From an uncultured Gemmatimonadota bacterium (GTDB lineage: Bacteria > Gemmatimonadota > Gemmatimonadetes > Gemmatimonadales > Gemmatimonadaceae), in contig CAIVZZ010000031.1 in the NCBI GenBank assembly GCA_903910555.1, forward strand, positions 62,001-126,000: 64,000 nt of DNA, written 5' to 3'. The translations under genes were made by a program, and so were the position numbers. Positions 17,913-63,641 of the stretch are shown here, in pieces (positions within the stretch are counted from its first letter, which is position 1; each line of letters begins with the position of its first letter). The notes beneath the pieces are model-generated. The model did no database searches, was not told where the DNA came from, and saw only the letters and a program-made list of their open reading frames with translations.

Positions 17913-19263
17913 ACTCTGGGTGGTCATCAAGCGCGAGTACCTCGAGCGCGTGCGGTCGAAGTGGTTCATCTTCACGACCATTTTCGGGCCGGTATTCTTC
18001 GCGGCGGTCACGATCCTGCCCGCATACATGACCAATAGGGGAATGAAGAATGCGCAGGTATCGAGCATTCGCATTCTCGATGCGACGGGCACGGGGCTCG
18101 GACATCGCGTCGCCGACCGGCTCTCGAAACGGCAGGACGATCAGTCGCCCACTCCGGGGCCCGGCGGACTCGGCGGCGGCCAGGTCGGCAGCCGCATCGG
18201 CGCCCCGGCCAGCGGGACGATCGCCAGCGTGGTTGAAGACGTCAATCCACCAAAGCTCGCGATGGCGGAATCGCTGGCGACGAAAGACGTGATGAACAAG
18301 GTCGATCCCGGCTATCTCGTGCTTGACTCCGCGACGCTGACGAAGTTCACGGCGCGCTATGCCGGGCGAAACGCGTCCGCCGTGGGCGAGATCCAGTTGA
18401 TCGAGACGGCAATCCAGCAGTCGCTGATGGCATCGCGACTCGAGGGCGCTGGCATCAAGCCGGAGCGCGTCGACTCGCTCACGAAGATCAGAGTCGACCT
18501 GGCGTCGGTTCGGCTCGATGAACGCGGTCGTGGCGACAGCGGCATCGTCAGTTTCATTTTTGGCGCGATCGTCGCATTCATGCTCTACATGATGATCATG
18601 CTCTACGGACAGAACGTCATGCGCAGCGTGCTCGAAGAAAAAATGACGCGCGTCGCCGAAGTCATCATGGCAAGCGTCAAACCCGACATTCTGCTCGCCG
18701 GCAAGATCCTCGGCGTCGGCGCCGTCGGTCTCACGCAGCAGATCGTTTGGGTCGGCAGCGCGGCGGCGTTCATTACGTACGGCGCCGTCATGGCGAAGGC
18801 GATGGGAATGCCGCAGATGCAGAACATGACGTTCCCGACGGTACCGCCGCTGCTTCTGGTATCGCTCGTCCTCTTTTTCATCCTCGGCTACATTCTGTAC
18901 TCGGCGATGTTTGCGGCGGTCGGCGCGATGGTCGGAAGTCAGGAAGAAGTGGCGCAGGCGGCGCAGCCCGTCGTGCTGCTGCTCATTGCGAGCATCATCT
19001 TCTTTCAGCCGATCCTGCTCAATCCGTCCGGCACGCTCGCGGTCGCGATGAGCATCATCCCGTTCACGGCGCCGGTGATCATGCCGGTGCGCATGACGAC
19101 GATCCAGGTGCCGCCGCTGGAGCTTGCCGCATCGCTGATCGCGCTCGCGTTCACCTGCCTGATCACGATCTGGGCGGCAGCGAGAATCTACCGGATCGGA
19201 TTGCTGATGACGGGAAAGAAACCGAACCTGAAGGAGCTCACGCGCTGGATCAAATACGCCTAA
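17905..19263 (+). CDS. ABC-2 type permease, NatB-like
   Basis: The 452-residue permease has the opening WVVIKREYLERVRSKWFI with the first helix at about 20-45, a large extracytoplasmic domain of about 180 residues, then five or so helices in the C-terminal half (GAIVAFMLYMMIML; a VLEEKMTRVAEVIMASV loop; the helix pair around LLLVSLVLFFILGYIL). VLEEKxxRVxEVxxSSV is the hallmark of the NatB/ABC-2 family. The loop contains a glycine-rich stretch GPGGLGGGQVGS. The gene is translationally coupled to the ATPase and ends at the left edge of a 138-bp palindrome. Confidence 0.85.
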   Translation: MDKLWVVIKREYLERVRSKWFIFTTIFGPVFFAAVTILPAYMTNRGMKNAQVSSIRILDATGTGLGHRVADRLSKRQDDQSPTPGPGGLGGGQVGSRIGAPASGTIASVVEDVNPPKLAMAESLATKDVMNKVDPGYLVLDSATLTKFTARYAGRNASAVGEIQLIETAIQQSLMASRLEGAGIKPERVDSLTKIRVDLASVRLDERGRGDSGIVSFIFGAIVAFMLYMMIMLYGQNVMRSVLEEKMTRVAEVIMASVKPDILLAGKILGVGAVGLTQQIVWVGSAAAFITYGAVMAKAMGMPQMQNMTFPTVPPLLLVSLVLFFILGYILYSAMFAAVGAMVGSQEEVAQAAQPVVLLLIASIIFFQPILLNPSGTLAVAMSIIPFTAPVIMPVRMTTIQVPPLELAASLIALAFTCLITIWAAARIYRIGLLMTGKKPNLKELTRWIKYA

Positions 19264-19400
19264 CTGCGGCGACTGGCGACAGGTAAATGGCAATTGGGCG
19301 AATAGCGACTCGCACGTGGTAAGGAGAACATAAGTTCTTCTCGCCACGTGCCAGTCGCCATGCACCAGATCGCCATTTACGAGTCGCCAGTCGCCGTAGT
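19263..19400. repeat. Intergenic imperfect palindrome built from GAC/GTC heptads
   Basis: The 138 bases between two convergent genes form one imperfect palindrome centred at 19331.5 with no net indel. About 55 of 69 arm positions pair. Each arm is made of words about seven bases long, for example GACTGGC, GACAGGT, AAATGGC, AATTGGG on the left and GTCGCCA, GTCGCCG on the right. As RNA it would form a long hairpin and could end transcription from both sides. No T-run is present. See the findings for related elements. Confidence 0.75.
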
Positions 19401-19401
19401 T

Positions 19402-24123: not shown

Positions 24124-24555
24124 CTACTTCACCACCGCCATGCACTCGATCTCCGTCCGCGCGTTGTTCGCGAGGCCGGTCGTGCCGAAGGCGCTGCGCG
24201 CGGGGAACTTTCCGGCGGTGAACATCGTGCGGTACACATCGTTCATCGCCGGCCACTCTTTCATGTCGGCGAGAAACACGGTGCACTTCACGACGTGCTC
24301 CATATCGGAGCCGTTCGCTTCGAGGACCGTCTTGATGTTCGTGAGCGCCTGTTTCGTTTCCGGTCCGATCCCGCCCTCGGCGAGTTTGCCCTTGTCCGTG
24401 CCGAGCTGCCCGGCGAGGTAGAGCATGTTGCCGACTTTCACGACGGCGGAGAACGGGGCGGTGCTCTGCGGATTGGTGTTGATGTACTGCGGGGCCTGCG
24501 CCAGCACGGCCGCCGGAACGAGAATCACTGCAGCTGCTGCGATCAATCGACGCAT
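24124..24555 (-). CDS. Exported RidA/YjgF family protein
   Basis: The 143-residue protein has a clear signal peptide (MRRLIAAAAVILVPAAVLAQ) followed by a complete Rid domain: PFSAVVKVGNMLYLAGQLG, ALTNIKTVLEANGSDMEHVVKCTVFLADM, and the substrate-site Arg in NARTEIEC. Cytosolic RidA hydrolyses reactive enamine/imine intermediates such as 2-aminoacrylate. An exported copy cannot protect cytosolic PLP enzymes, so its substrate must differ. The gene heads a tight run (esterase, membrane protein, GroES-like, bacilliredoxin). Confidence 0.85.
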   Translation of the reverse strand: MRRLIAAAAVILVPAAVLAQAPQYINTNPQSTAPFSAVVKVGNMLYLAGQLGTDKGKLAEGGIGPETKQALTNIKTVLEANGSDMEHVVKCTVFLADMKEWPAMNDVYRTMFTAGKFPARSAFGTTGLANNARTEIECMAVVK

Positions 24556-24584: not shown

Positions 24585-24698
24585 GTCTTGAGTCTGAGTC
24601 TTTTGTCTAGCGTCTGAAAACCCGCTGTTGTCAGTTCACAGCTGTCAACTGCGAACAGCGTGTTTTCAGACTCAAGACAGTAGACCCAGACTCAAGAC
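24585..24698. repeat. Intergenic imperfect palindrome built from GTCT heptads
   Basis: The 114 bases are one palindrome centred at 24641.5 on ACAGCTGT, with 48 of 57 arm positions pairing and no indel. Both arms consist of words of about seven bases that begin GTCT (left: GTCTTGA, GTCTGA, GTCTTTT, GTCTAGC, GTCTGAA) or carry AGAC (right: AGACTCA, AGACAGT, AGACCCA). It lies between two genes on the same strand and touches the last base of the Rieske gene's stop codon, so it would form the 3' end of that mRNA or part of the RidA leader. Confidence 0.8.
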
Positions 24699-25807
24699 TA
24701 CAAAAATTCGTGCAACAGCGAGTGAAAGTGATGCACCCCGACCTCGCGCAACGCGGAGTATCTCCCGCGATCGTACGCCCGCGATCTCAAGTTCTTCTGC
24801 ACCTGCACACAAATCTCGATATCCTCGTCCTGTATTTCGTCACTAAATGCTACTAATTTGGTCCACTGCGCGTCAGTAGCCGGATCCGCGGGCGGGGTGG
24901 CCGAATACCACTCGAACACCACCTCGCAGCTGTCATGTCCGCGGGGCAGCACGACATTCGTCTGCATCTGCCCCTGATAGACATTGAGCATCACGTTCGG
25001 AAAGAGCCAGTAGTACTGCGCCTGCTCGCCGTCTTCCGCAGGAATGTATTTCCTCGCATCGCCGCCCGGCGCCGGCGGAACCGGCCTGAGCGGCGCATGC
25101 TGCAGCGACCAGTACCGGTGCGGCTCCACCCGGTACTCTCCGTAGTCGATCTCCTTGTGCAGCGACGGATGTACGACCGGGATATGGTATCCCTCGAGAT
25201 AGTTGTCGACGTACACCTTCCAGTTGCACGCGATCGTCCACGACTTTCGCATCACCCACCGCATCTCCTCCACGCGGAACCGCGCGGCGCGCTCCGGGAT
25301 ATCTCCCAGAAAATGCGCGAGCGGCGGCGCGGCGGGATCGAGATTCACAAAGATCAGCGGGCCAAACGCGGCGACCTGGACCGGCAAGAGCCGAAAGTCG
25401 GAAGCACGGAAGCCGGAGCTTTCCTCCATCTCCGGCGCGCGCAACAACTGTCCGTCGAGCGCATAAGTCCACCCGTGATATCGGCACTGCAGCGTCTGCC
25501 GCTTGCCGCAGCCGTGCGCCACCGGTCCGGCGCGATGCAGACAGATGTTGTGAAAACCGCGCAAATCCGTTCCGTCGCGCAGCACCACGATCGACTCGTC
25601 GCCGATCTCGGCCGTGAAGAACTGTCCGCTCTCCGCGACTTGATCAGTGCGTCCCACCAGTTGCCACGTCCGGCCAAAAACCCGTTCGTCCTCGAGAGTC
25701 AGAAACATGGCGTCGGTGTAACAGCGCGACGGAATCGTCGACGCGCGCGCAATGTCCGCTTCGAACTCGAACGCCGCCGGCCTCCGGCTTCCGGCTTCCG
25801 GCTTCAC
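24698..25807 (-). CDS. Rieske [2Fe-2S] aromatic-ring-hydroxylating oxygenase alpha-subunit-like protein
   Basis: About 369 residues. The Rieske centre ligands are CxH (Cys89, His91 in NICLHRAG) and CxxH (Cys108, His111 in CRYHGWTY). The mononuclear-iron site follows in NYLEGYHIPVVHP, with an acidic ligand in EDIEICVQVQ. The closest known groups are choline/carnitine-type monooxygenases and related single-component oxygenases. A reductase partner is not in the window. Start choice is uncertain. The GTG at 25807 overlaps the last base of the lepB stop, but the next 28 bases are four copies of a 7-bp repeat that encode KPEAGSRRP. A TTG at 25837 would begin inside lepB. Confidence 0.8.
   Translation of the reverse strand: MKPEAGSRRPAAFEFEADIARASTIPSRCYTDAMFLTLEDERVFGRTWQLVGRTDQVAESGQFFTAEIGDESIVVLRDGTDLRGFHNICLHRAGPVAHGCGKRQTLQCRYHGWTYALDGQLLRAPEMEESSGFRASDFRLLPVQVAAFGPLIFVNLDPAAPPLAHFLGDIPERAARFRVEEMRWVMRKSWTIACNWKVYVDNYLEGYHIPVVHPSLHKEIDYGEYRVEPHRYWSLQHAPLRPVPPAPGGDARKYIPAEDGEQAQYYWLFPNVMLNVYQGQMQTNVVLPRGHDSCEVVFEWYSATPPADPATDAQWTKLVAFSDEIQDEDIEICVQVQKNLRSRAYDRGRYSALREVGVHHFHSLLHEFL
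25778..25805. repeat. Four-copy 7-bp tandem repeat at the start of the Rieske gene
   Basis: On the plus strand the sequence reads CGGCCTC followed by three perfect copies of CGGCTTC. It falls directly after the lepB stop and inside the first codons of the Rieske gene as read from the GTG at 25807. Gain or loss of one copy would shift the frame. Confidence 0.85.
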
Positions 25808-55704: not shown

Positions 55705-55714
55705 CAAACCACTG

Positions 55715-55798
55715 TTGCCACGGGTTTTCGCGGGTGAACGCGGGTAAGACAATCGAATTGCGGTTCTACCCGCGCCTTCCCGCGTAAACCCGCGGCAA
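55715..55798. repeat. Palindrome built from CGCGGGT decads
   Basis: The arms 55715-55750 and 55763-55798 pair at about 28 of 36 positions. The left arm repeats CGGGT every ten bases (CGGGTTTTCG, CGGGTGAACG, CGGGTAAGAC); the right arm has the complementary CCCGCG words at ten-base steps. It starts 11 bases after the ECF42 gene's stop and ends about 50 bases before the amidase start on the same strand, so it may end or insulate the sigma-factor transcript. Confidence 0.75.
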
Positions 55799-55850
55799 TT
55801 GTCGTTTCTGTGGGCGTCCCCCAGTATTGTGGTGGACCAACCCATAAATC

Positions 55851-63290: not shown

Positions 63291-63641
63291 AGGTCCTCTA
63301 TATGGAAGAAATGCTCTCTTGCTGGGTTCAAAGGTTACCCGCCGCAGGGCTGTGCTCAAGGCAACCCAAGTGCTCGGGGAGAGTTTTCCCGCAGAACCGC
63401 GGACTTACGCGGAAAATTCACGGAAAAGTCGCGGATACTGCAAATACTTGGGGGGGAACAACAACTACGCGTAGTTGTTGGTGCTGTTCCCCCAGGAAGT
63501 ATCCGCGTTGTTTCCGCGTCATTTCCGCGTAAATCCGTGGTTAAGGGGGAAAACCATCCCAAACATTGCCCCGCCACCCCGATCCACAGCGGTTAGACCA
63601 ATAAAGCGTTATTAATGGTTGACCCCTTTCCGAGCCTTCCT
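63291..63641. other. 351-base divergent spacer between two peptidase genes
   Basis: No gene is evident in this stretch. About half of it (63383-63554) is a large imperfect palindrome, annotated separately. The left 90 bases hold the leader of the M16 gene with a good ribosome site. The right 87 bases lead to the S9 peptidase start. The sequence AATAAAGCGTTATTAATGG (63600-63618) is AT-rich and may be part of a promoter, but I cannot place a -35/-10 pair. Confidence 0.6.
63383..63554. repeat. 172-bp imperfect palindrome built from CGCGGA words
   Basis: The element is centred near 63469 on a 22-bp perfect palindrome (63459-63480, core ACTACGCGTAGT), flanked by G- and C-runs and then by arms made of CGCGGA or TCCGCG words spaced 10-11 bases apart (left: CGCGGACTTA, CGCGGAAAATT, CACGGAAAAGT, CGCGGATACT). 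The ends are GTTTTCCC and GGGGGAAAAC. A net two-base indel separates the arms. It lies between divergent genes, unlike most of the others. Confidence 0.8.

Follow-up and report, generated by a model that had tools for sequence, protein, structure and literature searches.

What kind of DNA fills the gap between two codirectional genes of an uncultured Gemmatimonadota bacterium, and what explains its striking symmetry? The locus is a 114-bp palindrome at positions 24585-24698 of a 64-kb window (the whole stretch of DNA that was analysed), which belongs to a metagenome-assembled genome of 3.2 Mb in 32 contigs, here called G000. Its two arms of 57 nt each (24585-24641 and 24642-24698) abut without a spacer, and 48 of the 57 arm positions (84%) are complementary, gap-free, around the centre ACAGCTGT, with perfect pairing of the outer 12 bases at both ends. 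The initial annotation had described the element in these terms and had proposed a heptad periodicity, and both descriptions hold: the 7-bp register is genuine, the second heptad being one base short, and each arm consists of about eight successive 7-bp units, of which the outer ones read GTCTNNN. On the left, an outer array of five plus-strand GTCT heptads (24585-24619; the second 1 bp short, the last GTCTGAA), recognised by column conservation, is followed by the plus-strand inner heptads AACCCGC, TGTTGTC and AGTTCAC with AG as half of the centre (24620-24641), the boundary between the two being approximate to 1 bp. On the right, at an equally approximate boundary, inner heptads of the minus strand (24642-24663; AACACGC, TGTTCGC, AGTTGAC and AG), the reverse complement of the left type, adjoin an outer array of five minus-strand GTCT heptads (24664-24698), which starts from the G of a TAG stop codon. 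This stop (24700-24698) ends the upstream gene, a Rieske ring-hydroxylating oxygenase alpha subunit (24698-25807, minus strand; PF00848/PF00355), and the codirectional downstream gene belongs to the RidA/L-PSP family (24124-24555, minus strand; PF01042); these positions, obtained with a home-made gene finder, agree with those first annotated, including the shared last base of the Rieske stop. Rfam gave no match above the gathering score for the palindrome, the one hit being at chance level (19 versus 80 bits). A palindrome scan found four long palindromes with a score of at least 18 in the window, compared with none in one and a single one (14.5) in the other of two Markov control sequences scanned at a threshold of 14.

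The initial annotation had named a BLAST search for copies in the same genome as a check, with a mobile miniature element, a 3' stabiliser of mRNA and a protein-binding array as possible identities. The palindrome is far from unique: the search returned 61 matches, which correspond to 26 copies that are complete or almost so and to six partial ones, not counting matches with E above 1, short stretches without a recognisable arm, and C11:11480, which is a member of another palindrome family. In twenty of the 26 copies the anchors are 40 nt apart, and these copies conform to a model of 116 nt with eight heptads per arm, namely GTCTNNN three times, GTCTAGC, GTCTGAA, AACCCGC, NGTNNGC and AGTTCAC, and then AG, with CT across the centre. 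No variation was seen across the 52 arms in TCT of heptad four or in GTC.G of heptad five, and the three-base spacers of the outer heptads are free to vary. The copies were gathered with species-specific BLAST queries, which biases them towards conserved cores, but such a bias cannot produce fixed GTCT columns in alternation with free NNN columns. Near-invariant GTCT beside free NNN is compatible with a putative protein-binding array offering one site per heptad. A best-pair test gives weak indications of descent among the copies, its result being inflated in part by register shifts of one base among the outer heptads. The GTCT family was found in one of 40 relatives, G002, which has about 11 copies and corresponds, by an identical element sequence, to the MAG GL140_2_metabinner_43; a scan with the GTCT core pattern gave no occurrence in the contigs of an 84,980-species collection and none in a viral contig collection, so that the word is lineage-specific.

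Copies sit close to gene ends. Fourteen of the 18 full copies with a neighbour on the stop side lie at most 12 bp from the stop codon or overlap it, and the minus-strand RNA of the palindrome in the window folds very stably (-71.9 kcal/mol, z -10.95; none of 200 shuffles as good), as does the single-stranded DNA with short flanks (-37.4 kcal/mol, z -8.6; again none of 200). Both the placement and the stability of the RNA would suit host-encoded bidirectional 3' hairpins, stabilisers or terminators kept by selection on RNA structure, near which certain genes discussed below prefer to settle. Several observations make this reading quite unlikely. There is no U-tract after the G+C-rich stem, as an intrinsic terminator would have. 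The copies occupy 12 codirectional, five convergent and six divergent gaps (three have an unresolved side), and the divergent share (6 of 23 resolved) is close to that of the genome itself (40 of 163 gaps), which indicates that they do not avoid promoters as a set of terminators should. In addition, 16 of the 18 genomes of the genus are without the GTCT family, and four of five other sampled species lacked heptad palindromes altogether in 80 kb each: none were found in G003, G006, G009 and G015, in contrast to four in G012, all with period 7, and to 16 long palindromes in 464 kb of G000, ten of which have 7 as best period.

The two arms of a copy show no coupling. Spacer identity between arms is no higher within copies than after permutation (0.455 versus 0.484, P=0.93), allowing G-U pairs still reveals no within-copy coupling on either strand, and arms folded with their own partner reach a mean of -68.9 kcal/mol, compared with -71.2 for chimeric arms. 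The GTCT columns alone, counted with Watson-Crick pairs only, gave P=0.047, which we attribute to one-base register shifts. Selection on hairpin pairing was therefore rejected, since complementarity is no better between arms of the same copy than between arms taken from different copies. As the arms do not covary, the symmetry stems from a shared sequence word and not from maintained pairing, which points to sequence recognition by something acting in trans. A role as 3' stabiliser of mRNA is thus not supported as the source of the symmetry, in view of arm coupling, the U-tract and the copies in divergent gaps, although a side effect on mRNA is possible. Binding of Rho to YC dinucleotides spaced every 7 nt was likewise considered and dropped on inspection, several sense-strand heptad words having no YC. 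Bulk lag autocorrelation of intergenic DNA was weak and muddied by unannotated coding sequence and was replaced by local scans.

A candidate for the trans-acting factor is found on contig C5, where two GTCT palindromes (83567-83682 and 84141-84256) enclose an open reading frame of 134 codons that overlaps the second palindrome by a few bases. At the same place G010 and G012 have 95 bp instead of 751 bp, with neither palindromes nor gene. The product matches TIGR02436 ('four helix bundle protein', hereafter 4HB) and PF05635 ('23S rRNA-intervening sequence protein') and is homologous to PDB 2gsc, XCC0516; the S23 protein of Xanthomonas campestris is reported to be a homopentameric ring of five (PMC4990558). 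In an alignment of 18 sequences the invariant 4HB residues are mostly polar (e.g. Q38, R41, S45, N49, S72 and E75), which suggests a working site and not a scaffold alone. The proteins are under strong purifying selection, with dN/dS of 0.02-0.20 where dS could be estimated, many dS values being near saturation. No known defence protein was matched, and phage records gave no 4HB match. Full elements measure 408-840 bp in the 24 tabulated loci (of 41 in the genus), and 23 of these 24 have a stop codon on at least one side. In family A, to which the palindrome in the window belongs, and in the AGCT family, the 4HB gene stands between two complete palindromes and not between two arms, so that the solo form there is not simply a deletion.

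The association between 4HB genes and inverted heptads reaches far beyond this locus. In one uniform test on 57 4HB genes from Gemmatimonadota, Cyanobacteria and Azospirillum, many of them orthologues and hence not independent, inverted repeats with a score of at least 17 flanked 49, compared with 1 of 147 size-matched control genes, and that single control turned out to be a 4HB gene itself (C15:310199), caught by chance. The eight genes below threshold include some at contig ends. In G000 all 11 4HB genes are bracketed in this way. A more independent set comes from plasmids, where 13 of 16 loci (of 20 hit records, leaving out H4, H6, H10 and H20) are boxed, in Pseudanabaena, Calothrix, Nostoc, Geminocystis, Trichormus, Scytonema, Anabaena, Aulosira, Azospirillum and Gemmatirosa; their words include AAAAGCT, GGGAACA, TCAGAAG, GTGTAGG and GACAGAG, with a repeat unit of 7 bp in nearly all and of 8 bp in Gemmatirosa. 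Among contigs of the viral collection seven of nine (two of the nine near-identical) are boxed, with period 7 in all eight arms long enough to score. Overall, 7 was the best internal period in 42 of 52 4HB arms versus 44 of 267 random intergenic stretches. On two cyanobacterial plasmids (loci among L353, L361 and L365) a heptad-boxed 4HB gene was seen between cas6 and cas4 of a CRISPR operon, and the one at L365 lies between two type III-B genes.

The words in the arms of the 4HB loci of G000 recur in solo palindromes elsewhere in the same genome. For 14 of 17 long palindromes (the 16 from the 464 kb surveyed plus 55706-55807 of the window), a match was found in the flanks of the eleven 4HB genes; a single one of these 14 is itself part of a 4HB element. 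Fifty control sets, each of 22 gene flanks, gave 1.56 matches on average and four at most. Within a genome, every family uses a heptad word of its own; the GTCTNNN family belongs with the 4HB gene at C5:83.8 kb, and other solo palindromes pair with the 4HB genes at C15:310199, C18:43859 and C25:12390, among others. The window holds a second solo palindrome of the same class (19262-19401, unstranded like that at 24585-24698; family B, with CGCC/GGCGACT heptads), which spans from stop codon to stop codon of two convergent genes and whose arms correspond to the sequences on either side of the 4HB gene at G000:C11:43113. No 4HB flank matches the remaining three of the 17 palindromes, two of which lie inside the window (63377-63560 and 55706-55807, neither with a match among the 4HB flanks of G000); both show an apparent internal period of 11 bp made of CCGCG words.

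Taken together, we consider it probable that the palindrome represents a selfish element in a non-autonomous form without an ORF, the complete element being composed of a single 4HB/S23 gene (TIGR02436/PF05635) between two inverted heptad arrays. Of the identities first proposed, that of a mobile miniature element is supported by many copies, presence and absence between species, and a gene-bearing relative with the same ends. The 4HB protein would recognise the heptads of its own ends, and solo palindromes would serve as dyad sites for binding and as substrates for mobilisation in trans. Formation of a hairpin, as RNA or as a cruciform, may then be a by-product of both ends obeying the same word, and copies probably favour the position directly behind a stop codon because insertion is least harmful there. 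Counting against a 4HB element, no GTCT-flanked 4HB gene was found in G002, whose assembly consists of about 250 contigs.

Tandem heptads could also arise by slippage, as minisatellites comparable to STRR or GGGAATC repeats, with inverted pairs formed by template switching and 4HB genes captured by chance. Like such heptanucleotide repeats, the elements described here consist of tandem 7-bp units, are intergenic and lie near stop codons; array length is variable, one copy having nine GTCT-like heptads, and plain heptad arrays without inversion occur at stop codons in other species. The window has one as well, a TCCGGCT array at the lepB stop (25777-25806, unstranded), whose word also flanks a 4HB gene in G012 (L323). 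Chance capture does not account for the contrast between 4HB and control genes, and dispersed copies have the complete 116-nt design in common, down to the inner CCGC and GTTCACAG segments, which makes an origin by slippage unlikely. As a separate observation, the TCCGGCT heptads extend into the N-terminus of the Rieske open reading frame, where they encode a KPEAGSR-like peptide, and G002, G010 and G012 contain numerous occurrences of the same word, often spaced by 21 bp.

If the palindrome is an ORF-less 4HB element, it works like a MITE, that is, as ORF-less ends travelling with a gene-bearing relative. It is short, has no ORF, carries terminal inverted repeats, exists in many dispersed copies, and shares its ends with a gene-bearing element of the same genome, the gene being 4HB and not a transposase. 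The same appearance as a dispersed inverted-repeat element without an ORF would be expected of a MITE of an ordinary DDE or HUH transposon whose transposase lies outside the families searched and for which the 4HB gene is cargo. We nevertheless regard this as quite improbable: about ten palindrome families in one genome are each paired with a 4HB gene, heptad-boxed 4HB genes occur in several phyla, and Y1 transposase (PF01797) was found in 0 of the 18 genus genomes, the same search being positive in 5 of 14 controls. REP/RAYT was rejected on this same result. Flanking target-site duplications, predicted initially, were not found either, the longest shared flank k-mer being 3.27 versus 3.20 after permutation (P=0.35) in a test for which element ends are fuzzy because the number of heptads varies. 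The Avd protein of diversity-generating retroelements shares an S23-like pentameric fold. In contrast to these retroelements, G000 contains no reverse transcriptase (PF00078, RVT_1), which was found in only one of the 18 genus genomes; mobilisation from within the genome in a DGR- or retron-like manner was rejected, as RVT_1 is absent from 17 of 18, including the four heptad-rich species. Because neither RAYT nor reverse transcriptase was found, the 4HB protein would need to rely, for strand transfer, on enzymes supplied by the host or by another source.

Transposition was not observed directly, and many 4HB elements occupy syntenic positions in different species, which implies that movement is old or rare. 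A pair of 4HB genes (L321/L331) is 94% identical with flanks that are not shared, although the syntenic counterpart is a different copy. At two loci, both flanks are conserved and the 4HB gene between them is inverted (L317/L343 versus L326, and L320 versus L341/L348), and at a third (L313 versus L325) inversion is supported by one matching side only. Such inversions are what an invertible switch would produce, in which the inverted repeats recombine and flip the 4HB gene. Ordinary recombination also inverts DNA between long inverted repeats, and the solo palindromes hold nothing to flip, so a switch appears very unlikely as the explanation.

By descent, the palindrome belongs with the 4HB elements, of which the best-known members are the intervening sequences (IVSs) of 23S rRNA. 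IVSs of Coxiella and Leptospira are reported to encode the same protein family (S23p/IVP) in an ORF located in the loop of terminal inverted repeats, and are described as selfish; that of Coxiella combines such repeats with an S23 ORF preceded by heptameric GACAGAT units (PMC4990558). The complete elements analysed here similarly enclose a PF05635 (S23/IVP) ORF between inverted terminal repeats, and solo copies have none. Unlike the IVSs, they lie between protein genes beside stop codons and not inside the helices of 23S rRNA, form many families per genome with abundant ORF-less copies, and have inverted repeats made of heptads. GGGAATC/GGGGATT repeats of Xanthomonas and Nostoc are intergenic, heterogeneous 7-bp units near or overlapping stop codons and frequently form inverted pairs; unlike the elements described here, they are reported as G-quadruplex sequences with no link to mobile elements, and in the text available of that paper a 4HB gene is not mentioned ('four helix' and 'S23' occur 0 times; PMC4692102). 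The TAACTGA direct repeats of Beggiatoaceae are intergenic heptamers of unknown origin as well, but consist of one word, located mostly before start codons and reported as almost never inverted (PMC4679880). REP/BIME sequences are dispersed extragenic palindromes found mostly downstream of genes; in contrast to the palindromes analysed here, they are of 20-40 bp, carry a GTAG or CGTC tag and come with a RAYT transposase (PMC3733652), and no such transposase was found here. A tie between 4HB genes outside rRNA and inverted heptads was not encountered in the open-access literature, the body of work searched, with subscription papers and preprints largely outside it.

S23/IVP four-helix-bundle genes are widespread and of unknown role, and heptameric repeats have long been reported from bacteria without an origin. 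The near-constant link between the two (49 of 57 versus 1 of 147) gives the protein a proposed target and the repeats a proposed owner. It is conceivable, and somewhat short of an even chance in our estimation, that a widespread class of bacterial selfish elements with inverted 7-bp arrays encodes no factor other than a TIGR02436/PF05635 protein, each protein reading its own word, perhaps with one heptad per ring subunit, that solo palindromes and plain arrays are footprints of these elements, and that the 23S rRNA IVSs are their rRNA-gene branch. If true, a single explanation would cover S23/IVP proteins, the scattered heptanucleotide repeats of Xanthomonas, cyanobacteria and Beggiatoaceae, and many orphan intergenic palindromes. 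Mobile DNA would then include a kind with a single gene, for a small helical bundle, and with miniature derivatives that would settle at gene ends and sometimes inside protein linkers.

GTCT arrays do occur in both interdomain linkers of a pyruvate dehydrogenase E2-like gene (L052:2900-3400; G000:C8:47640-47970), where they are translated (QTQDSRPQTAD, VSRPASSVSS), and the heptads are thus tolerated inside a protein. Rickettsia palindromic elements are palindromes of about 100-150 bp, some of which lie inside genes; the arrays in the E2 linkers share with them a resemblance only.

Within the genus, heptad elements occur in the four species rich in 4HB genes: G000, G002, G010 and G012 have 11, 10, 7 and 10 PF05635 genes, compared with 0-4 in the other 14 members. 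The Rieske site of G009 is a gap of 32 bp with the element absent. At five orthologous sites shared by G000 and G002, the word of a copy is that of the genome in which it lies. Identity of the inner arms reaches 0.64-0.81 between these orthologues and 0.743 between the two species at large, compared with 0.906 within G000 and 0.819 within G002, the within-species values being perhaps somewhat high owing to the species-specific BLAST queries. The word thus drifts as a set, either by concerted replacement or by following a changing reader. A GTCT element at C15:174617 is found in both G000 and G002, and no such element is present in ten other species from which the gap was recovered. The orthologous gap contains a palindrome of the GCGAC family in G010 (L193) and a decayed one in G012 (L192), so that the palindrome family in one and the same intergenic gap differs between species, as though gaps had been used more than once.
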